From contig NZ_CP107913.1 of the NCBI RefSeq assembly GCF_036014115.1, forward strand, positions 5,131,001-5,195,000: DNA of 64,000 nt. The letters are read 5' to 3'. This DNA comes from Streptomyces sp. NBC_00448. Lineage in GTDB: Bacteria; Actinomycetota; Actinomycetes; Streptomycetales; Streptomycetaceae. The notes under the pieces were generated by a model. It saw only the letters and a program-made list of their open reading frames with translations. It was not told the origin of the DNA and searched no databases. Position 1 is the first letter of the stretch, and each line of letters starts with the position of its first letter. Below, piece after piece: positions 29,919 through 41,598 of this stretch. A program made the position numbers and the translations under genes.

Positions 29919-31667
29919 TCAGCGCGCGGACGGCAGGCGGATGCGGAAGGTGGCGCCGTCGCCGGGCTCGGTGTCCAGTTCGACGGTGCCGTGGTGGGCG
30001 GTGACGAGCGCGGAGGCGATGGCGAGGCCGAGGCCCGCGCCGCCGCCGGTGGCGCGGGAGCGGGAGGCGTCGACCCGGTAGAAGCGCTCGAAGACGCGCG
30101 CGGCCTGATCAGGGGTGAGGCCCGGCCCGCGGTCGGCGACTTCGAGGATTCCGTGCCCGCCGGAGGTGCCGACGCCTATCCGTACCGGGGTGCCGGGCGG
30201 TGTGTGGGCGACGGCGTTGCCGACGAGGTTGGCGACGACCTGGCGCAGCCGCGCCTCGTCGCCGAGCACCGGTGCCGGTCCTGGCGGGGTGCCGGTGCCG
30301 CCGGGCCCGGTGAGGGTGACCGGTCGGGTCGGGTCGAGGGCGGTGGTGTCGTGCAGGGCGTCCACCGCGAGGGTGCGCAGGTCCATCGGCGCGAGCTGGA
30401 CCGGCCGCTGCTCGTCCATCCGCACCAGCGTGAGCAGGTCCTCCACCAGGCCGCCGAGGCGTACGGCCTCGCTCTCGATCCGGGCCATCGTCCGCTTCAC
30501 GTCGGCGTCGTCGGCGAGCGCGCCCATCCGGTACAGCTCGGCGAAGCCGCGGATACCGGCCAGCGGGGTGCGCAGTTCGTGGCTGGCGTCGGCGACGAAC
30601 CGCCGCATCTGCTGTTCGGACTCGGCGCGGGCGGCGAACGCGGACTCTATCTGCGCGAGCATGCCGTTGAGCGCGGACGACAGCCGGCCGACCTCGGTGC
30701 CCGGCGACGCCTCCGGCATGCGGTGCGACAGCGGGCGGCCCGCGGCGATCTCGGCCGCGGTCGCCTCGATCCGGCGCAGCGGCCGCAGCCCGGCGCGGAC
30801 GGCGAACCAGCCCGCGACGCCGAGCAGCGCCACCACGACGCCGCCGATCAGCAGGAACGCGGTGCTGAGGTGGCTGGTGGTGGAGGAGACGTCGTCCAGG
30901 GAGGAGGCCACCACGACCCCGGCGGGCAGATCGGCGGTGGGCGTGCCGGCGCGGTCGAGGGCCTCGTCGGTGCCGGTGCCGACCGGCATGATCAGCACCC
31001 GCCAGCTGCCGCCGCCGTGGTCGCTGCGTACGTCGAAGGGGTGGCCGAAGCGGGAACGCAGCCGGGTCGCGTCCATCGTGGGCCACAGTGGCTGCGGGTC
31101 GTTCGCGGCGACCGGCATCCGGAACTGCTCGGCCACGTGGCCGTCGGCGGCGGCGAAGGCGACGACGAACTGGCTGGGCAGCCAGGGGCGGGCCCCGCCG
31201 GGGCTGTTCACGGTGTTCGCGGCGGCCGGGCCCGAAGCGTTGCCGCTCCCGCCGGTCGTGCCGTTCGCGCCGTGCGTGCTCATGGAGCCGCCGTGGCCGG
31301 TTCCGGGGGCCAGGTAGCGCGGCGGCGGGACGCCCTCCGTGCCGAGCCGGCGGGCGAGCGGCTGGCCGTACCGCTGGAGCTGCTGGTCCACCCGCTGCAC
31401 CAACTGCCCGCGCACCGAGCCGAGGACCACCGTGTCGCTGACCGCCAGGCCCAGCAGCACCAGCACCAGGGCGAGCAGCACCAGCCGGGAGCGCAGCGAC
31501 ACCGCCGACCACTGGAAGCCGGCCGGCCACCGCCTGATCCGGCGCAGCGCCGCGCCGGGGCCTGAGCGTCCGGCCGGTCCGGACGCGCCGGGTCGTATGC
31601 CGGGCGGGTCGGTCCGTATGCCGGGCGGGTCGGGCGGGCCCGCTGGTCGCGGCGGCGGGAACCCCAT
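29919..31667 (-). CDS. Sensor histidine kinase of the MacAB-type efflux operon
   Basis: 582 residues. Pro-rich cytoplasmic tail (1-50), first membrane helix (about 60-82), extracytoplasmic domain (to about 265), second helix, HAMP (about 290-345), HisKA with the phosphorylated His near 364 (Ala-Ser-His-Glu-Leu-Arg-Thr-Pro), then HATPase_c with N, G1 (Ala-Asp-Arg-Gly-Pro-Gly-Leu) and G2 (Gly-Ala-Gly-Leu-Gly-Leu-Ala) boxes. ATG at 31667, 14 bp after the stop of its response regulator. Phosphorylates the regulator encoded just upstream. Confidence 0.95.
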   Translation of the reverse strand: MGFPPPRPAGPPDPPGIRTDPPGIRPGASGPAGRSGPGAALRRIRRWPAGFQWSAVSLRSRLVLLALVLVLLGLAVSDTVVLGSVRGQLVQRVDQQLQRYGQPLARRLGTEGVPPPRYLAPGTGHGGSMSTHGANGTTGGSGNASGPAAANTVNSPGGARPWLPSQFVVAFAAADGHVAEQFRMPVAANDPQPLWPTMDATRLRSRFGHPFDVRSDHGGGSWRVLIMPVGTGTDEALDRAGTPTADLPAGVVVASSLDDVSSTTSHLSTAFLLIGGVVVALLGVAGWFAVRAGLRPLRRIEATAAEIAAGRPLSHRMPEASPGTEVGRLSSALNGMLAQIESAFAARAESEQQMRRFVADASHELRTPLAGIRGFAELYRMGALADDADVKRTMARIESEAVRLGGLVEDLLTLVRMDEQRPVQLAPMDLRTLAVDALHDTTALDPTRPVTLTGPGGTGTPPGPAPVLGDEARLRQVVANLVGNAVAHTPPGTPVRIGVGTSGGHGILEVADRGPGLTPDQAARVFERFYRVDASRSRATGGGAGLGLAIASALVTAHHGTVELDTEPGDGATFRIRLPSAR

Positions 31668-31681
31668 GGCCGCGCCGCCGT

Positions 31682-32422
31682 TCAGCCCTGGCCCGGCGCG
31701 GGACGGCGCAGCACGTAGCCGACCCCCCGCACCGTGTGGATCAGCTTCGGGCCGCCGCCCGCCACCGCGTCCACCTTGCGCCGCACGTACGAGATGTACG
31801 ACTCGACGATGCTCAGGTCGCCGCCGAAGTCGTACGCCCACACGTGGTCGAGGATCTGCAGCTTGGAGACCACCCGGTCGGCGTTGGCCATCAGGTAGGC
31901 GAGCAGCTTGAACTCGGTGGGGGACAGGGAGATCTGGCGGCCGGCCCGCAGCACCTGGTGGCCGACCGGGTCGAGCTCCAGGTCGCCTGCGACCAGCCGC
32001 CCGTCGTCGGTGGGGCCGCCGGTGCGGCGCAGGATCGCCCTGATCCGGGCGATCAGCTCCTCCAGGCTGAACGGCTTGGTGACGTAGTCGTCGCCGCCCG
32101 CGGTGAGGCCGCTGATCTTGTCGTCGACGCCGTCCTTCGCGGTGAGGAAGAGCACCGGCAGCCGGTCGGGCCCGCCGCCCGCCCGCGGGTGCGGCCCGCT
32201 CTCCTCGCGCAGCCGCTTGACGACGGTGAAGCCGTTCATGTCCGGCAGCATCACGTCGAGGACCACCAGGTCGGGCCGTTCGCGGGCGACGGCGGCCAGC
32301 GCGTCGGCGCCGGTGGCAGCGGAGACCACCTTGAAGCCGACGAACCGCAGGGACGCGGAGAGCAGTTCCCTGATGTTCGGTTCGTCGTCCACGACCAGCA
32401 GGCTGGCTTCGGGTGTCTCCAT
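31682..32422 (-). CDS. OmpR-family response regulator
   Basis: 246 residues. Receiver domain with Asp-Asp at 12-13, phosphorylated Asp56 (Val-Val-Leu-Asp-Val-Met-Leu-Pro) and Lys116 (Tyr-Val-Thr-Lys-Pro-Phe). The C-terminal winged helix (about 140-242) has Leu-Ser-Pro-Thr-Glu-Phe-Lys-Leu-Leu and Arg-Gly-Val-Gly-Tyr-Val-Leu-Arg. Followed 14 bp later by its kinase. An insertion of Gly/Pro/Arg-rich residues (about 78-90) between beta strands is slightly unusual. Probably binds the 11-bp direct repeats at 36995-37023. Confidence 0.95.
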   Translation of the reverse strand: METPEASLLVVDDEPNIRELLSASLRFVGFKVVSAATGADALAAVARERPDLVVLDVMLPDMNGFTVVKRLREESGPHPRAGGGPDRLPVLFLTAKDGVDDKISGLTAGGDDYVTKPFSLEELIARIRAILRRTGGPTDDGRLVAGDLELDPVGHQVLRAGRQISLSPTEFKLLAYLMANADRVVSKLQILDHVWAYDFGGDLSIVESYISYVRRKVDAVAGGGPKLIHTVRGVGYVLRRPAPGQG

Positions 32423-32491: not shown

Positions 32492-33382
32492 TCAGTTGCC
32501 GGTGCCCCCGGCGCCGCCGGTGCCGCCCGCGGTGCTCCCGCCGCCGAAGCCCCCGAACCCGCCGAACCCGCCGGCGGTGCCGCCGCCCTCGGTGACGGTG
32601 GTCGCGGTCACGTTGCCGTCGGCGCCCTTGGTGCCGAGGACGGTGACGCTCTGGCCGGCCTTGAGGTCGGAGACCTTGCCGGACTTGGACTCGGTGACCT
32701 TGGTGGAGCCGCCGGTGGTGACCTTGACGATGTTGCCCTGGGCGTCGGTGACGTAGAGGGTCTTGCCGTCGACGAGCTTGACCGTGCCGACCGTCACGCC
32801 GTTCGCGGCGGTGCCGCCGCCCGCGGTCGTGCCGGTGCCCGCGGTGCCGCCGAAGCGGCCGCCCGCGCCGCCGGTCCGGCCGGTGCCCGCGGTGCCGCCG
32901 GTCGGCCCGCTCGGGAAGCCGGACCGCCCGGCCGTGGTGCTGCCGTTCAGATGGTGCTTCTCGACGAGGGCGCCGCCGGAGAACGCCGCCGCGGCCACCA
33001 CGCACGCGGACAGCACCAGGGTCAGCCACGGCAGCTTGCGGCGCGGCGGGGCGGTCAGCTCGGCGGAGATGTCGCGGGCGTCCGGCGGCTCGGCGAGGAT
33101 GTCCTCGGGGTGCTCGCCGGGACGCTCGATGTCGTATCCGCCCTCGGGGTACGTGCCTTCGGGGTACGTGCCCTTGGGGCCCGCGCCGTTCGCCGGGTAC
33201 CCGGCCCCGCCGCGGGGGTCGGGCACGGTGCCGCCCGGACCGCCCGCGCGGCTCGGACCACCGGGGCCGCCGGCGCCGGCCGGGGTCTGCGAACTCCCGG
33301 TCTGCCGCGGCCCTTCCATGATCTCGATCCCGCCTGCGGCCTCGGCGTCTGCCTTGACAAGCTCGGTGCGGCGTCGCGCCAT
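32492..33382 (-). CDS. Membrane-anchored DUF5666-like protein
   Basis: 296 residues. A disordered Gly/Pro-rich cytoplasmic part (1-110) has repeated Gly-Thr-Tyr-Pro-Glu units, followed by one membrane helix (about 118-140), a Gly/Thr-rich stretch and a DUF5666-like beta domain (about 195-262: Gly-Thr-Val-Lys-Leu-Val-Asp-Gly-Lys-Thr-Leu-Tyr-Val). The end is a run of Gly-Gly-Phe-Gly. ATG at 33382 follows AGGAAGAGGGG. A longer form could start at 33433, overlapping the permease stop as TGATG. Lies in the efflux operon between permease and regulator; may sense or guard the export pathway outside the membrane. Confidence 0.82.
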   Translation of the reverse strand: MARRRTELVKADAEAAGGIEIMEGPRQTGSSQTPAGAGGPGGPSRAGGPGGTVPDPRGGAGYPANGAGPKGTYPEGTYPEGGYDIERPGEHPEDILAEPPDARDISAELTAPPRRKLPWLTLVLSACVVAAAAFSGGALVEKHHLNGSTTAGRSGFPSGPTGGTAGTGRTGGAGGRFGGTAGTGTTAGGGTAANGVTVGTVKLVDGKTLYVTDAQGNIVKVTTGGSTKVTESKSGKVSDLKAGQSVTVLGTKGADGNVTATTVTEGGGTAGGFGGFGGFGGGSTAGGTGGAGGTGN

Positions 33383-33432
33383 CTCGGCCCCTCTTCCTGA
33401 TCCCGTGTTCCGCTTGTGTCTCTTGGTGAACA

Positions 33433-34650
33433 TCACTCGTGCCGCAGGGCCTCGATGGGCCGCAGGCCCGCCGCCCGGTTGGCCGGGTAGCTGCCGAAGA
33501 AGAGCCCGATGGCCACCGCGATGGCGAACGCGCCCCACACCGACGCGGGGATGACCGCCGGTTTGATGCCGACGATGGTGAACCGCGAGCCGATCAGCCC
33601 GCCGACCACCCCGAGCCCGCCGCCGATCAGCGACAGCAGCGTGGACTCGGCGAGGAACTGCCCGAGGATGACGCCCTTGGGCGCGCCGATCGCCTTGCGG
33701 ATGCCGATCTCCCGGGTCCGCTCGGTGACCGTGACCAGCATGATGTTGGTGATGCCGATCCCGCCGACCAGCAGCGAGATCGCCGCGACCGCGCCGAGCA
33801 GCACCGTGAAGGTCTTGTTGGTGTCGGACTGGGTGCTCAGCAGCGACGCCTGGTTGCTCACCCGGAAGTCGAGCGCGTTCGGGTCGCTGATGCCGTGCGT
33901 GCCCATCAGGATCGTGGTGATCTCGTTCTGCGCGGGCGTGGTCGCGCCGGCGGACTTCGCCTCGACCAGGATCTGGCTGACCGGCCCGAAGCCGGTGAAG
34001 GCGTTCTGCACGGTCGGCAGCGGCGCGATCACCGTGTCGTCCGGGTCCTGGAAGCCGGTGCCGCCCTTGGTGGCCAGCTCCCCGACGACCGTGAACGGAG
34101 TGCCGCCGATCACCAGCTTCTTGCCGATCGGGGAGACGGTGCCGAACAGGTCGGTCGCGGTGGTGGAGCCGATCACGGCGACCTTGCGGGAGTTGAGCAC
34201 GTCGTCGGCGCTGAAGTAGTCGCCCTTGTCGACCTTGCTGTTGGAGGTCTGGAAGTAGGCCGGGTACGTGCCCACGACCTGCCCGACGGTGTGCGAGGTG
34301 CCGTTGTAGACCGCGGACTGCGAGGTGGTGACCTCGGGCGCGACGGACTCGATGTCGGGCGCGTCGGCGGGGTTGGCGAGCGCGCGGGCGTCGTCCACGG
34401 TGAGCGGCTTGGTGCTGGTCGCGGACGACGAGCCCGACGCGCTGAAGCCGCCGCCGGAGGAGACGGTGAGCGAGTTGGTGCCCAGCTTCTCGATGGAGTC
34501 CTTGACCGACTGTGAGGAGCCGTTGCCGACCGCGAGCAGGATGATGACGGCGGCCACGCCGATCAGCACGCCGAGCATGGTCAGCGCGGAGCGCACCTTG
34601 TTCGCGGCGAGCCCGCCGACGGCGAACCGCAGGATCTCGAACGGGTTCAC
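33433..34650 (-). CDS. MacB-type ABC transporter permease
   Basis: 405 residues. Four membrane helices (about 18-42, 278-305, 330-358, 368-392) with a large outer MacB_PCD domain in between and the FtsX domain last. Ends with the family's Arg-Pro-Ile-Glu-Ala-Leu-Arg-His-Glu. Start overlaps the ATPase stop (ATGA). With the ATPase and adaptor it forms a MacAB-like mechanotransmission exporter; in Gram-positives the cargo is often a peptide or lipid-like drug. Confidence 0.93.
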   Translation of the reverse strand: MNPFEILRFAVGGLAANKVRSALTMLGVLIGVAAVIILLAVGNGSSQSVKDSIEKLGTNSLTVSSGGGFSASGSSSATSTKPLTVDDARALANPADAPDIESVAPEVTTSQSAVYNGTSHTVGQVVGTYPAYFQTSNSKVDKGDYFSADDVLNSRKVAVIGSTTATDLFGTVSPIGKKLVIGGTPFTVVGELATKGGTGFQDPDDTVIAPLPTVQNAFTGFGPVSQILVEAKSAGATTPAQNEITTILMGTHGISDPNALDFRVSNQASLLSTQSDTNKTFTVLLGAVAAISLLVGGIGITNIMLVTVTERTREIGIRKAIGAPKGVILGQFLAESTLLSLIGGGLGVVGGLIGSRFTIVGIKPAVIPASVWGAFAIAVAIGLFFGSYPANRAAGLRPIEALRHE

Positions 34651-35576
34651 CGGGCCGCACCCCCGCTCATGGCGTGCGGGGCGTGGGAGGCGAACTCCGC
34701 CGGGTCGCGCAGCGCGGGCGGCGGCCCGTCCACCGCGGCCTGCCGTACGTCCTCCACGACCTGCCCGTCCACCAGCCGGATCACGCGCTTGGCGTGCCGG
34801 GCCACTTCGTCCTCGTGGGTGATCAGTACGACGGTGCGCCCGGACGCGTTGAGCCGGTCGATGATGGCGAGCACATCCTCGGTGCTGTGGCTGTCCAGGT
34901 TGCCGGTCGGCTCGTCGGCGAGCAGCATCGCCGGCGCCGTGACCAGGGCGCGGGCCACCGCGACGCGCTGCTGCTGGCCGCCGGACAGTTCGTTGGGCCG
35001 GTGGTCGACGCGGTCGGCGAGGCCGACCAGGGAGAGCGCGGCCAGCGCCCGGCGGCGCCGCTCGGCGGCCTTCACGCCGGCGTAGGCGAGCGGGAGTTCG
35101 ACCTGGGCGAGCGCCGGGGTGCGCGGCACCAGGTTGAACGACTGGAAGACGAAGCCGATCTTGCGGTTGCGGACCAGGGAGAGCTGGTGCTCGTCCAGGC
35201 CGCCGACGTCGATGCCGTCCAGCAGGTAGCGGCCGGCGGTCGGCACGTCGAGGCAGCCGAGGATGTTCATCAGGGTGGACTTGCCGGAGCCGGAACTGCC
35301 CATCACCGCGACCATGTCGCCCTGTTCGACCAGCAGGTCCACGCCGGGGGAGTCACCGGTGAGCGGGTCGGCGGGGCCGCCGAGCGCGCGGACGGCGGCG
35401 TCGCCGTGGCCGTACGTCTTGAGCAGGGAGCGCACCTCGATGACCGGGGCCGGGCCCCAGGGGCCGCCGTCGGCCATCTCGGCGGCCGCCTCGTCATCCG
35501 CCGTGCGGCGCAGCCGGTGCAGCCCGGACGCCGCTCCGGCCAGGCCGCCGAGCCGCTTGCCCAGGGCCTGCCTCAT
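34647..35576 (-). CDS. ABC transporter ATPase (MacB/LolD type)
   Basis: 309 residues. Walker A Gly-Ser-Ser-Gly-Ser-Gly-Lys-Ser-Thr at 93-101, Q-loop Phe-Gln-Ser-Phe-Asn near 144, signature Leu-Ser-Gly-Gly-Gln-Gln-Gln-Arg at 197-204, Walker B ending Leu-Leu-Ala-Asp-Glu-Pro at 218-223, His-switch Ile-Thr-His-Glu. The N-terminal 40 residues and an insertion (about 68-80) lengthen it beyond a plain LolD. Overlaps the adaptor stop and the permease start by four bases each (ATGA), so the three are translationally coupled. Confidence 0.95.
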   Translation of the reverse strand: MRQALGKRLGGLAGAASGLHRLRRTADDEAAAEMADGGPWGPAPVIEVRSLLKTYGHGDAAVRALGGPADPLTGDSPGVDLLVEQGDMVAVMGSSGSGKSTLMNILGCLDVPTAGRYLLDGIDVGGLDEHQLSLVRNRKIGFVFQSFNLVPRTPALAQVELPLAYAGVKAAERRRRALAALSLVGLADRVDHRPNELSGGQQQRVAVARALVTAPAMLLADEPTGNLDSHSTEDVLAIIDRLNASGRTVVLITHEDEVARHAKRVIRLVDGQVVEDVRQAAVDGPPPALRDPAEFASHAPHAMSGGAAR

Positions 35577-36970
35577 CCGCGGCCACCTCCGCCGGCGGTG
35601 CCGCCGGTGCGGAAGCCGCCGCCGGCGCCGCCCGCGGCGCCGAGCCGGTTGGCGCCGCCGCCGATGCCGCCGGGGAACGCACCGCTCGGGAAGCCGCCGT
35701 TGCCGGAGGAGGCGACCTGCGGGATCTGCACCTGCTGGCCCTCCTTCAGGCCGCTGGTGATCTGGTCGGCCGAGTCGCCCTCGACGCCCACGGTCACCGG
35801 GGTGCGGGTGGTGGAGCCGTCGGAGTTGACCACCAGGACCGTACGGTTGGTGCCGGTGCCGGAGACCGCGGCGGTCGGCACGCTCAGCGCGTCGGCCGCC
35901 TGGCCGGTGGTCACCTGGATGCTGGCGCTCAGGCCGGTGCGCAGGTTCGAGGTGTCACTGGTGATGCTCAGCGTGGCGGCGTACTGCACCGCGCTGCCGC
36001 TGGAGCCCGACCCGCCGGAGCTGGAACTGCTGCTGACCGGCAGCGAACTGATCGACAGCACCTTGGCGTCGAGCACGGTGCCGGACTCGGCGTTCAGCGT
36101 GACGGTCGCGGCCTGGCCGGCCTTGATCTTCAGCGAGTCGGCCTCGGAGAAGTCCGCCTTCACCTGCATGCCCGAGGGGTTGGTGAGGACCACGAACCCG
36201 GTCGGGGTGGAACCGGAGGAACTGGAGGAGGAGCCCGACGACGAACTGCCGCTGGAACCCGACCCCGACGAGCCCGAGCCCGAACTCGTACCGCTGCCGG
36301 AGGTGCCGCTGACCGTGTCGCCCTTCACGCCGTCCACCGAGGCCACGGTGCCGCTGACGGCGGCCTTCAGCACGCAGCCGTCCACCGCGCGCTGCGCGGC
36401 GTCCACGGCGTTCTGCGCCTCAGTCAACTGGGCCTGTGCGGAGGCGAGTTGGGCCGGGTCGACGGTCGGGGTGGGGGTCGGGGTGACGACCGTCTCGCGG
36501 CTGCTGCCGGAGTTGGAGCCGGAGCCGGACGAGCCGGAGCCGGAGTCCGTGCCGGAGGAGGCGGGGGTCTCGCCGGCCTCGACCTTCGTCAGGTTCGCCT
36601 CGGCCGCGGTCAGGGACGCCTCGTCCTGCTGGAGCGTCTCCTTCGCGGCGGTCGGGTCGACCTTCGCCAGCACCTGGTCCTTCTTCACCTTGTCGCCCGG
36701 CTTGACGTCGACCTCGGTGAGGGTGCCGCCGGTGGTGAAGTTCAGCCCCGCGTCGCTCGGGGAGGAGAGCGTGCCGGAGCCGGATACGGTGGCCGACACC
36801 GTGGCCGTGGTCACGGTCGCGGTCCGTGCGCCGCCCGAGCTCGCGGACTTGCCGCTGTCGTCGTGCACCGCCGCGTAGGCGCCGCCGGCGCCCGCGAGGA
36901 CCACCACGCCGAGCACCGAGTTGATCAGGACGGCCCTGCGCCGCCGTGGGAGCACCTTCATGGCGCGCAT
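35573..36970 (-). CDS. MacA/HlyD-type adaptor protein of the exporter
   Basis: 465 residues. One N-terminal membrane helix (about 12-34), a biotinyl-lipoyl barrel half near 60-95 (Gly-Gly-Thr-Leu-Thr-Glu-Val-Asp-Val-Lys-Pro-Gly-Asp), coiled-coil arms (about 100-200) and a beta-barrel and membrane-proximal domain (about 240-420). It contains very long Gly/Ser runs (about 130-150, 218-255 and 310-325) that interrupt the domains; the tail is Gly-rich. ATG at 36970 has GGAG eight bases upstream; 36988 and 36961 are alternatives. First gene of the six-gene operon. Confidence 0.88.
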   Translation of the reverse strand: MRAMKVLPRRRRAVLINSVLGVVVLAGAGGAYAAVHDDSGKSASSGGARTATVTTATVSATVSGSGTLSSPSDAGLNFTTGGTLTEVDVKPGDKVKKDQVLAKVDPTAAKETLQQDEASLTAAEANLTKVEAGETPASSGTDSGSGSSGSGSNSGSSRETVVTPTPTPTVDPAQLASAQAQLTEAQNAVDAAQRAVDGCVLKAAVSGTVASVDGVKGDTVSGTSGSGTSSGSGSSGSGSSGSSSSGSSSSSSGSTPTGFVVLTNPSGMQVKADFSEADSLKIKAGQAATVTLNAESGTVLDAKVLSISSLPVSSSSSSGGSGSSGSAVQYAATLSITSDTSNLRTGLSASIQVTTGQAADALSVPTAAVSGTGTNRTVLVVNSDGSTTRTPVTVGVEGDSADQITSGLKEGQQVQIPQVASSGNGGFPSGAFPGGIGGGANRLGAAGGAGGGFRTGGTAGGGGRG

Positions 36971-36994
36971 CTTGGACTCCGACGCCATTGAAGG

Positions 36995-37023
36995 CCTGGG
37001 AGCAGCCTGGGAGTTTGCTGGGA
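36995..37023 (-). promoter_or_regulatory. Three CTGGGA direct repeats with 11-bp period before the efflux operon
   Basis: CCTGGGA at 36995 and 37006 and GCTGGGA at 37017 are each 11 bp apart. OmpR-type regulators bind direct repeats of about one helical turn, so this is a candidate site of the operon's own regulator. It lies 25-53 bp upstream of the adaptor start, in the 361-bp gap shared with the divergent lipoprotein gene. The rest of that gap shows no gene I can support. Confidence 0.55.
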
Positions 37024-37331
37024 ACCTGGCCCGCCGTGCGGCCGCCGCGGGCGCCTCCGAAACGGACTTCCGCCGCTCAACCGGGCGAAAAGGCCGCCCC
37101 CGGAAGCCCGTTGCGACGGGGCGCTCCCCGGGAACTCACAGCTCGATCCCCGACAGTCCCCACCTGTATGCGGTTCAGTTCCACCGTCGCTCGCGTGTCC
37201 CCGCGTCCCGTGCGTGCGCGCGGGCGGCCCCAAGTACGGCTGACAGCCATACGGCAACGTGCCGCGGCACCTCGCCACCGGACGCCGATCCGGTGGTGCG
37301 GTGTCCGGCTTTCCCCGAGGAGACCACGGTC

Positions 37332-38000
37332 ATGAACTGGACCACCAGCCGGCCGCCCGAGGCGCGCATCGCGGTGCGGGCCGGGGCGTTCGTCGCCGTA
37401 CTCGCCTCGGGCGCGCTCGCGCTCACCGCGTGCTCCTCCGGCGGTTCCTCCTCCTCGGACGCGAAGTCCTCCGCGTCCGCCTCCGCGTCCGTGGCCGCCT
37501 CGGGCGGCGGGGGCGGGCAGGACATGGAGGCGTACCGGCAGTGCCTGTCGCAGCACGGTGTCAACCTGCCCACCTTCAAACGCCCTTCGGGCGGTGCGCG
37601 GCCCAGCGGCCGTCCCAGCGGTGCGCCGAGCGGCCGTTCCAGCGGCGGGTACCGGGGCGGCTTCGGCGGGATCGGCGGGGCCTCGCCCGACGCGGCCACC
37701 CAGAAGGCGCTCAAGGCGTGCGCCTCCAAGCAGCCGAAGTTCCCGGGCGGCGGCCCCGGCGGCGCCAACGGCGGGGCCGATGCCAGCGCGATCCAGGCGT
37801 TCACCGGTTGCCTCAAGGACCACGGCGTCACCCTCCCCACCCCCTCGCCCGACGCGAGCGCCTCCGCAGGCAACGGCCGCGGCGGCTACGGCGGCTTCGG
37901 CGCCATCCGCAACCTCAACACCGCCGACCCGAAAACCGCCAAGGCCTACGCCACCTGCAAGCCCCTCCTCCCCCAACGCCCCACCTCCACCCCCTCCTAG
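37332..38000 (+). CDS. Lipoprotein with duplicated Cys-x3-His-Gly-Val motif
   Basis: 222 residues. Lipobox Leu-Thr-Ala-Cys at 31-34, Ser/Ala-rich linker, then two copies of one unit: Tyr-Arg-Gln-Cys-Leu-Ser-Gln-His-Gly-Val-Asn-Leu-Pro (near 69) with Ala-Cys-Ala-Ser-Lys, and Phe-Thr-Gly-Cys-Leu-Lys-Asp-His-Gly-Val-Thr-Leu-Pro (near 155) with Thr-Cys-Lys. Each unit could form one disulfide. The region between is Gly/Ser/Arg-rich. It is divergent from the efflux operon with a likely shared control region, so it may report on or protect against the same stress. The ATG follows CGAGGAGA. Confidence 0.85.
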   Translation: MNWTTSRPPEARIAVRAGAFVAVLASGALALTACSSGGSSSSDAKSSASASASVAASGGGGGQDMEAYRQCLSQHGVNLPTFKRPSGGARPSGRPSGAPSGRSSGGYRGGFGGIGGASPDAATQKALKACASKQPKFPGGGPGGANGGADASAIQAFTGCLKDHGVTLPTPSPDASASAGNGRGGYGGFGAIRNLNTADPKTAKAYATCKPLLPQRPTSTPS

Positions 38001-38114
38001 ACCCCACCTGGCTCGACTCCACCAAGACCCCCTCCCGCCCCGGCTCACCGTGCGGTAGTTTCCGAACGCACCGCCGTCCGAGGCCGTGCGGTCATGCCAC
38101 ACATGGGGGTCCAT

Positions 38115-38660
38115 ATGTCCGGGATCGGGCGACGCGGGCACCTGCCGCGCGGCGCCGTGCGGCTCTCCGCTTGCGCGGCGGGTGCGGTGGTGCTCGCGCT
38201 GGCGGTGTCGGGGTGCTCCAGTTCGCCGTCGGGCCCGAAGGCGAAGGACTCGGCGGTGAAGATGGCCGCGGACGCGCGGTGGGTGGCGGCGAAGGAACGC
38301 CGGTACGGCAAACCCACGACCCCGTTCACTGTCACCCAGGACGGCACCAAGGCCGTGTCCTGCGGGCACGACAAGGCCAGCTACTCCTTCGCCGGGCACC
38401 AGACGTTCACCATCGGCCCGGTGGACACCTATCTGAACGTCACCACGAGCAGCAGTGCCGGGCTGTTGGCGAATCGGGGATACATCGTCGACATCGGCAC
38501 GAAGACGGACAACGGCGACTATGACAGCCACATGTCCAAACCGCTGGTGAACAAGAAGACTCGCATCCACCTCACTGTCACGGCCACCGCCTCGAGCGAT
38601 CACGCCTCCACCGAAGTGTGGGCCGTCACCGCGCACACGGACTGCCTGCGCACCGGTTGA
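38115..38660 (+). CDS. Lipoprotein A, paralogue of the one at 41053
   Basis: 181 residues. Lipobox Ala-Val-Ser-Gly-Cys, then Ser-Ser-Ser-Pro-Ser-Gly-Pro-Lys-Ala-Lys-Asp-Ser-Ala. Conserved blocks shared with the paralogue: Phe-Thr-Val-Thr-Gln-Asp-Gly-Thr-Lys-Ala-Val-Ser-Cys-Gly-His, Ala-Ser-Tyr-Ser-Phe-Ala-Gly-His-Gln, Arg-Gly-Tyr-x-Val-Asp, Leu-Val-Asn-Lys-Lys-Thr and the end Thr-Ala-His-Thr-Asp-Cys-Leu-Arg. Two mature Cys probably form a disulfide. Convergent with the 660-residue protein at 38702. An upstream Met at 38094 would lengthen the signal peptide. Confidence 0.82.
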   Translation: MSGIGRRGHLPRGAVRLSACAAGAVVLALAVSGCSSSPSGPKAKDSAVKMAADARWVAAKERRYGKPTTPFTVTQDGTKAVSCGHDKASYSFAGHQTFTIGPVDTYLNVTTSSSAGLLANRGYIVDIGTKTDNGDYDSHMSKPLVNKKTRIHLTVTATASSDHASTEVWAVTAHTDCLRTG

Positions 38661-40684: not shown

Positions 40685-41052
40685 CTGCCTTGCCCCCTGG
40701 GCTCCTTGCGAATGCGGTGCGCGCGTGGCGGGCGGGTGCGGGCGGTCGACTTCGCCGGTTCTTCGATCACGCATCGCTACCGCTTGGTCACATCGGTACA
40801 GTATCCGCCTGGTGCCGCGCGTGCCGCATGGGGCACGTGGGTCTGTTCGCGGGCGAGGAGTACGCAACGCTCCCGGGTGCGAGGAACTGGTCGATGGAGT
40901 GGGGCAATTGTGCGACGCATCCCGGGTGTGGTCCCGCGCGCAATTGCACGTTGTGGTCCTGCCCCACGACCTCCATGACCGTGCACGCGTGAGGGCCCTC
41001 GTCGTTCGCGGCACATACGGTGCCGGTCATGCCATGGATAAGGGGAGGTCGT
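40685..41052. promoter_or_regulatory. Divergent promoter region, large protein and lipoprotein B
   Basis: 368 bp with no gene I can support. Two GCAATTG motifs at 40904 and 40940 (36 bp apart) and two CCCGGGTG motifs (about 40873 and 40921) make paired repeats that a regulator could use. The end before lipoprotein B shares GGTCATGCCA with the region before lipoprotein A, showing the paralogues were copied with part of their leaders. Confidence 0.4.
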
Positions 41053-41598
41053 ATGCCGGTGCGCGCACGATCGGTTCGGACATCGCGCCACGGCGAGTGG
41101 ACGCTGACCTGCGCGGTCGGTGCGGTGGTGCTCACGCTGGCGGTGTCGGGGTGCTCCAGTTCACCGTCGGGGCCGAAGGCGAAGGACTCGGCGGCGAAAA
41201 TGTCGACGGACGCGCGGTGGGTGGCGGCGAAGGTGCGGGCGGGCTTCAAGCCGCTGGGCGTGTTCACGGTGACCCAGGACGGGACGAAGGCGGTGTCCTG
41301 CGGGCACGGCAAGGCGAGTTACTCCTTCGCCGGGCACCAGAGCTTCCGTATCTCCTCCGGCGGCAACTATCTGGACTTCACCACGGTCTTCGGTTCGTCG
41401 AAGCTGCACGATGAACGGGGCTACGACGTCGATCCCGACGCGACCCGGCAGGACGACGAGTACACCAGCTACGACACGCCCCTGGTGAACAAGAAGACCG
41501 GCATCCACCTCACGCTCAGGGCGACCGCCTCCGGTGAACACGCCACCACCGAGCTGTGGACCGTCACCGCCCACACGGACTGCCTGCGCGCCGGCTGA
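41053..41598 (+). CDS. Lipoprotein B, paralogue of the one at 38115
   Basis: 181 residues, the same length as lipoprotein A, and similar throughout, including the lipobox, the Gly-Thr-Lys-Ala-Val-Ser-Cys-Gly-His block and the Thr-Asp-Cys-Leu-Arg end. The signal peptide differs more than the mature part. Convergent with the WXG100-like gene at 41620 (21-bp gap), repeating the arrangement of lipoprotein A. ATG at 41053 follows GGGGAGG. Confidence 0.82.
   Translation: MPVRARSVRTSRHGEWTLTCAVGAVVLTLAVSGCSSSPSGPKAKDSAAKMSTDARWVAAKVRAGFKPLGVFTVTQDGTKAVSCGHGKASYSFAGHQSFRISSGGNYLDFTTVFGSSKLHDERGYDVDPDATRQDDEYTSYDTPLVNKKTGIHLTLRATASGEHATTELWTVTAHTDCLRAG

Follow-up and report, generated by a model that had tools for sequence, protein, structure and literature searches.

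The three direct repeats ahead of a six-gene export and two-component operon are most likely the operator of the operon's own PhoP-like response regulator, which, from this array and from a second one facing the other way, would activate both the pump operon and a divergent lipoprotein gene. All coordinates below refer to the window, i.e. the whole stretch of 64,000 nucleotides that was analysed.

The operon and its upstream repeats

The operon and the array ahead of it comprise the following features:

36996..37023, minus strand: putative operon-side operator, three TCCCAG units (37018-37023, 37007-37012 and 36996-37001) with a period of 11 bp, recognized by sequence and kept in homologous operons
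35573..36961, minus strand: MacA-like/RND-type periplasmic adaptor (membrane fusion protein), with 36961 as the revised start; TIGR01730 and HlyD_3 matches
34647..35576, minus strand: MacB-type ABC ATPase; ABC_tran E 3e-29, best NCBIfam match MacB
33433..34650, minus strand: MacB permease; MacB_PCD 4e-45, FtsX 2e-17
32492..33433, minus strand: DUF5666-like protein with one transmembrane segment; weak Pfam match, hydropathy
31700..32422, minus strand: OmpR/PhoB-family response regulator, similar to Mycobacterium tuberculosis PhoP; both arrays are presumably bound by it
29919..31667, minus strand: membrane histidine kinase (HAMP-HisKA-HATPase) with two transmembrane segments

The sequence-only reading from which this analysis started had pointed to CTGGGA units at 11-bp spacing between 36980 and 37030, placed before a six-gene operon. 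There are three such units at exactly that spacing, and they do lie directly upstream of the operon, but the array belongs to the minus strand, where the units are TCCCAG on the operon's coding strand: from 37023 down to 36996 the sequence is TCCCAG CAAAC TCCCAG GCTGC TCCCAG, i.e. TCCCAG-N5-TCCCAG-N5-TCCCAG. The characteristic feature of a PhoP-type operator, TCACAG-like tandem units with a strict 11-bp period, is thus present. The same reading had described an operon that couples export, sensing and an outer DUF5666 protein. The six genes are real, but as the host is a Gram-positive actinobacterium, none of the products is an “outer” protein. The features of MacAB-type ABC export are all present, namely a permease with MacB_PCD and FtsX domains, an ABC ATPase and an HlyD/RND adaptor, the latter with 112 bits against TIGR01730 (cutoff 95). 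The DUF5666 match, in contrast, stays below the cutoff (E 7e-4, 20.3 bits versus a gathering score of 27), and the single transmembrane segment of this protein is predicted at about residue 139; a literature search on DUF5666 and on this operon, within the library that was covered, returned nothing informative.

TCCCAG occurs 28 times in the 64-kb window, counting both strands, and at this frequency chance alone would produce only about 2e-4 exact triples in the 9.65-Mb, single-contig Streptomycetaceae genome, in which merely two other exact TCCCAG pairs at 11-bp spacing exist. A relaxed pattern, which was designed to include both arrays and matches both of them without mismatches, found nothing else with fewer than three mismatches in this genome; the weaker matches that were inspected lie under long open frames, and the genome-wide regulon search by pattern gave no additional sites above background.

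The array is conserved with the operon

The closest named relatives of the host genome belong to Actinacidiphila. Fifteen homologous loci were fetched via the permease protein and hence independently of the repeats, and in all nine complete Actinacidiphila/Streptomyces loci the array is found at the same place with 11-bp spacing, with TCTCAG as third unit in L025. Non-conserved spacing had been named in advance as an outcome that would speak against an OmpR-type site; the 11-bp period is kept in homologous operons, and the reading withstands this check. The Streptacidiphilus loci have degenerate versions of the array, and Kitasatospora L032 and Nonomuraea L035 are without its strict form. A clear array in L032 is oriented the opposite way.

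With one mismatch allowed, the pattern CCCAGNNAACTCCCAGNNNNCTNNCAGRG matched in 44 of 395 family genomes, while its reversed control matched in none of the 395, and most of the inspected matches sit ahead of this operon. Loci that are fetched by a pattern contain the array by construction, and the independent evidence therefore consists of the features outside the pattern. At larger distance, a permease relative (E<=1e-100) was detected in 23 of 246 sampled genomes of the class, covering 19 of 104 genera, and its neighbours are mostly the same gene set in varied order. In several distant actinobacterial families, TCnCAG units with an 11-bp period again lie upstream of the adaptor: three TCCCAG in L116, ACCCAG/TCCCAG/TCACAG in L122, TCACAG/GCACAG in L126, and TCTCAG-type units in L132 and L134.

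Within the genus of the host, 26 genomes have both the array and the regulator (E<=1e-100) and 6 have neither, with 3 exceptions (Fisher p ~1e-4); one of these is G039, whose array is only 4.7 kb away from the end of its contig. The genus member G100 has the regulator but gave no match to the pattern, and conversely no regulator was detected in G055, where the operon array is present. As far as the Streptomyces-like genus g9 was sampled, operon array and regulator occur in one and the same set of five genomes. A cis element linked to its regulator gene would co-occur with it in any case, and we regard this result as supporting but not decisive.

Promoter geometry and the start of the adaptor

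36969..36974, minus strand: predicted -10 CAAGAT, 21 nt past the last repeat and 7 nt ahead of ATG 36961

In all 41 distinct intergenic sequences of the family, the third unit is followed, at a distance of exactly 21 nt, by a hexamer whose second base is A and whose sixth base is T. In most of them it reads CAGGAT (CAAGAT in this genome), and the adaptor ATG follows 6-9 nt downstream; no other offset between array and start codon came near this score in the 41 sequences. By eye, the distant loci L126 and L132 likewise show a -10-like hexamer after 21 nt and a start codon 6-7 nt further on, the 21 nt in L126 being measured from the second-last unit.

This geometry bears on where the adaptor begins. 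Mechanical ORF calling chose ATG 36988, which is unlikely to be the start because it is not conserved: relatives are without that ATG or its frame, and many of them have AAAGG. The conserved start is ATG 36961 (MKVLPRRRRAV), and judged from this alignment, the adaptor probably starts there. As the mechanical frame begins upstream of the conserved start, one could argue that the repeats are a by-product of the coding frame of a longer adaptor N-terminus, or that they arose by chance. Given the chance expectation calculated above, and as relatives lose the ATG and the frame while the array is kept, this explanation is refuted by conservation and hardly deserves credence.

In S. coelicolor, promoters have a TANNNT -10 element, and 21% of the mRNAs are leaderless (PMC4895711). 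Together with these data, the fixed -10 geometry predicts a leaderless transcript from ATG 36961, and the layout of the sequence agrees with an activator site that covers the -35 region of such a promoter. Counted from the start so predicted, the array occupies about -40 to -62, and the -35 hexamer is non-consensus. Could the regulator bind the arrays but repress its own operon until a signal releases it? OmpR-family regulators are capable of repression, and M. tuberculosis PhoP autoregulates via sites downstream of its start (PMC3413638). Here, however, the array covers neither the -10 nor +1, its spacing to the -10 is invariant, and a non-consensus -35 is what is expected for an activated promoter, so that autorepression appears quite improbable and activation remains the reading that we prefer.

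A second array in front of a divergent lipoprotein gene

On the other side of the same region, the following features were found:

37024..37124, no strand: 101-bp spacer between the arrays; lengths in 11-bp steps by lineage, A/T clusters with about 10-bp period
37125..37152, plus strand: putative lipoprotein-side operator, TCCCCG-N5-TCACAG-N5-TCCCCG, period 11 bp
37174..37179, plus strand: conserved TTCAGT, candidate -10, 21 nt past the lipoprotein-side array
37332..38000, plus strand: divergent lipoprotein with four conserved Cys and CLxxHGVxLP twice, by sequence comparison

The lipoprotein-side array (TCCCCG GGAAC TCACAG CTCGA TCCCCG on the plus strand) had been missed in the first reading of the DNA, as had the constant 21-nt step to the -10, the predicted leaderless start and the stepped spacing of the arrays, and is conserved in relatives; in L074 (genus g16) it is near-perfect, TCCCAG GAAAC TCCCAG GTCGT TCCCAG. 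A TTnnnT hexamer is present at the position of the candidate -10 in 36 of 38 sequences, but TTCAGT is without the A at position 2, which is a point against the explanation proposed here. The lipoprotein itself, recognized from the start by its duplicated Cys motif, indeed has, besides the lipobox Cys, four more Cys that are invariant and belong to a CLxxHGVxLP pattern occurring twice. It matched no family in Pfam and NCBIfam, and its predicted structure is of low confidence (mean pLDDT 60, pTM 0.33). In almost every relative that was inspected, the gene is found together with the operon, and this is also so in distant families, there at altered positions. Further small lipoprotein genes are found nearby: the paralogous genes 38094-38660 and 41020-41598, both on the plus strand and with the stretch CSSSPSGPKAKDSA in common, flank a large minus-strand gene adjoining the operon. 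The former gene is without a Pfam match and was found, among the examined relatives, only in A. yanglinensis (L021/L062).

The regulator and its likely binding mode

The regulator consists of Response_reg and Trans_reg_C domains, and its best solved relatives are the structures of M. tuberculosis PhoP (phmmer 2.4e-79, residues 3-239). On TCACAGC-N4-TCACAGC, this protein binds as a head-to-tail dimer with strict spacing (PDB 5ED4, PMC4832192), repeats of three or four units are bound more tightly, and the bases are read by N212, V213, E215, S216, Y217 and Y220 (PMC4832192). In our regulator, the corresponding residues are S, I, E, S, Y and Y, five of the six being identical or conservative. In M. 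tuberculosis, the base at the third position of the repeat is an A that is contacted via water only (PMC4832192), which fits the variability of this base (C here). A simple covariation of residue 212 with the third base was considered and is unsupported, as the base is C here, A in M. tuberculosis and T elsewhere. With its 11-bp spacing conserved and its regulator being of the mycobacterial PhoP type, the array looks like the OmpR-type site for the operon's own regulator that had been suspected initially.

The principal alternative is that another OmpR-family regulator, i.e. a PhoP-like paralogue or the phosphate PhoP, binds the arrays. The paralogues in the same genome reach at most 59% identity, a value found for two of them; they could compete for the site or own it, and one of the two has an 11-bp pair of its own, which argues for similar site preferences within the subfamily. 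Against this stands that the array travels with operon and regulator into scattered Streptomyces-like genomes and is present with the operon in distant families, that the paralogues have different recognition helices, with another residue at one of the positions that read the bases (S216 to L), and that the only two strong sites of the genome flank the promoter region of this operon. We therefore consider an alien regulator unlikely and retain the operon's own regulator as the probable binder. CutR was also rejected as regulator, as the CutR site is TAWATAAA and not this repeat (PMC12802291).

The pair just mentioned, TCTCAG/TCACAG (TCTCAGAGTTTTCACAG), lies about 180 nt upstream of the PhoP-like paralogue in L137 of the same genome and suggests a similar autoregulation there. 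A point against the preferred reading comes from the Kitasatospora-like genomes: in genus g14, a regulator with 75-79% identity is widespread, but the strict operon-side array is missing.

Spacing between the two arrays

Measured from one facing end to the other, the separation of the arrays differs by lineage and clusters at 68, 79-80, 89-91, 101-102 and 112-113 bp, with 93 and 98 as outliers; the distance in Kitasatospora L032 is 81 and was omitted from the later counts. As the register is set independently by the -10 on either side, slipping from one repeat unit to the next does not explain these steps. In a tree built from the first 140 residues of the adaptor, the length classes require at least 6 changes, and if 6 of 8 length changes are taken as in phase (within 1 of a multiple of 11), the post hoc p is ~0.007. 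The spacers contain A/T clusters with a period of about 10 bp (mean power 0.69 versus 0.20 +/- 0.03 in shuffles); by column permutation, the periodicity has p<=0.0002 in the 79- and the 101-bp classes and 0.026 in the 90-bp class, and many single spacers surpass all but a few percent of length-matched background windows. Both the 11-bp steps and the A/T periodicity were found by looking and were not predicted beforehand.

The periodicity would agree with an intrinsic curvature of the DNA that separates phased arrays, and the A/T clusters could alternatively be the site of another protein. It is conceivable, albeit rather doubtful, that the arrays are held in register across A/T pre-bent DNA such that the bound regulators join into a single bridged or wrapped nucleoprotein switch.

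Proposed mechanism and further targets

On the basis of the above, the following course of events is the most likely. The kinase would phosphorylate the PhoP-like regulator, three molecules of which could then occupy the three TCCCAG units head-to-tail, one per 11 bp and all on the same face of the DNA. The last of them would lie over the -35 region and recruit RNA polymerase to the -10, 21 nt downstream, and the leaderless mRNA would begin at or beside ATG 36961. We infer that the same regulator could also bind the weaker, oppositely facing array at 37125-37152 and thereby activate the divergent four-Cys lipoprotein gene. Pump, sensor and lipoprotein would in this way constitute one self-amplifying envelope-response unit with positive feedback. 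In Gram-positive bacteria, MacB-type systems serve in the defence against peptides or antibiotics and in functions of the envelope (PMC5985334), and by analogy, our first guess for signal or substrate would be envelope-active peptides or lipoprotein/cell-wall stress.

A further array was found in G017 (L082:8158-8186, plus strand), TCCCAG GAAAC TCCCAG CTTTC TCCCGG, followed after 21 nt by CATAGT. It precedes a gene away from the operon whose translation resembles, as we read it, a GT39-type membrane glycosyltransferase, and the regulator of this genome is encoded on another contig, together with the arrays of its own operon. The glycosyltransferase-like gene is therefore a candidate trans target of the same regulator. 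Triple 11-bp arrays with AAAAGTCCCAG occur in L076, L077 and L078, and similarly in L085, where the operon is not adjacent. They have the form GTCCCAGAAAA-GTCCCAG...TCCCAG, in L078 with an arginine-deiminase-like frame downstream, and are probably sites of another regulator.

Relation to known systems and significance

Tandem 11-bp units over the -35 region are the activation layout of the OmpR/PhoB type, as in the boxes of E. coli PhoB and of the Streptomyces phosphate PhoP. The layout is shared by the arrays described here, but the gene context differs and so does the hexamer, which is GTTCACC-like in case of the Streptomyces phosphate PhoP. Much closer are the boxes of M. tuberculosis PhoP: the regulators belong to the same subfamily (E 2e-79) and have nearly the same recognition helix, the period is 11 bp, triple repeats are allowed, and the hexamer TCACAG is near-identical to the TCCCAG/TCACAG found here. 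The differences are that the regulator gene lies within a MacAB-type operon with an adjoining four-Cys lipoprotein, that there are two inverted triple arrays with 11-bp-stepped spacing, and that the third base on the operon side is C. PhoP-type direct-repeat operators are thus known, whereas the paired arrays with their 11-bp-stepped arrangement are unexpected. As for the pump, the Gram-positive systems YknXYZ and SpMacAB (reviewed in PMC5985334) likewise combine adaptor, ATPase and MacB permease without an outer membrane, but here a DUF5666-like protein and a PhoP-type two-component system are encoded in the same operon, and the four-Cys lipoprotein is divergent.

A PhoP-type regulator, best studied in mycobacterial virulence, is hereby tied to a MacAB-type export module with a four-Cys lipoprotein that recurs across actinobacteria, and the outcome is a testable operator together with a putative second target gene. 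The 11-bp-stepped spacing, if functional, would offer a natural series for testing the cross-talk of divergent OmpR-family promoters.
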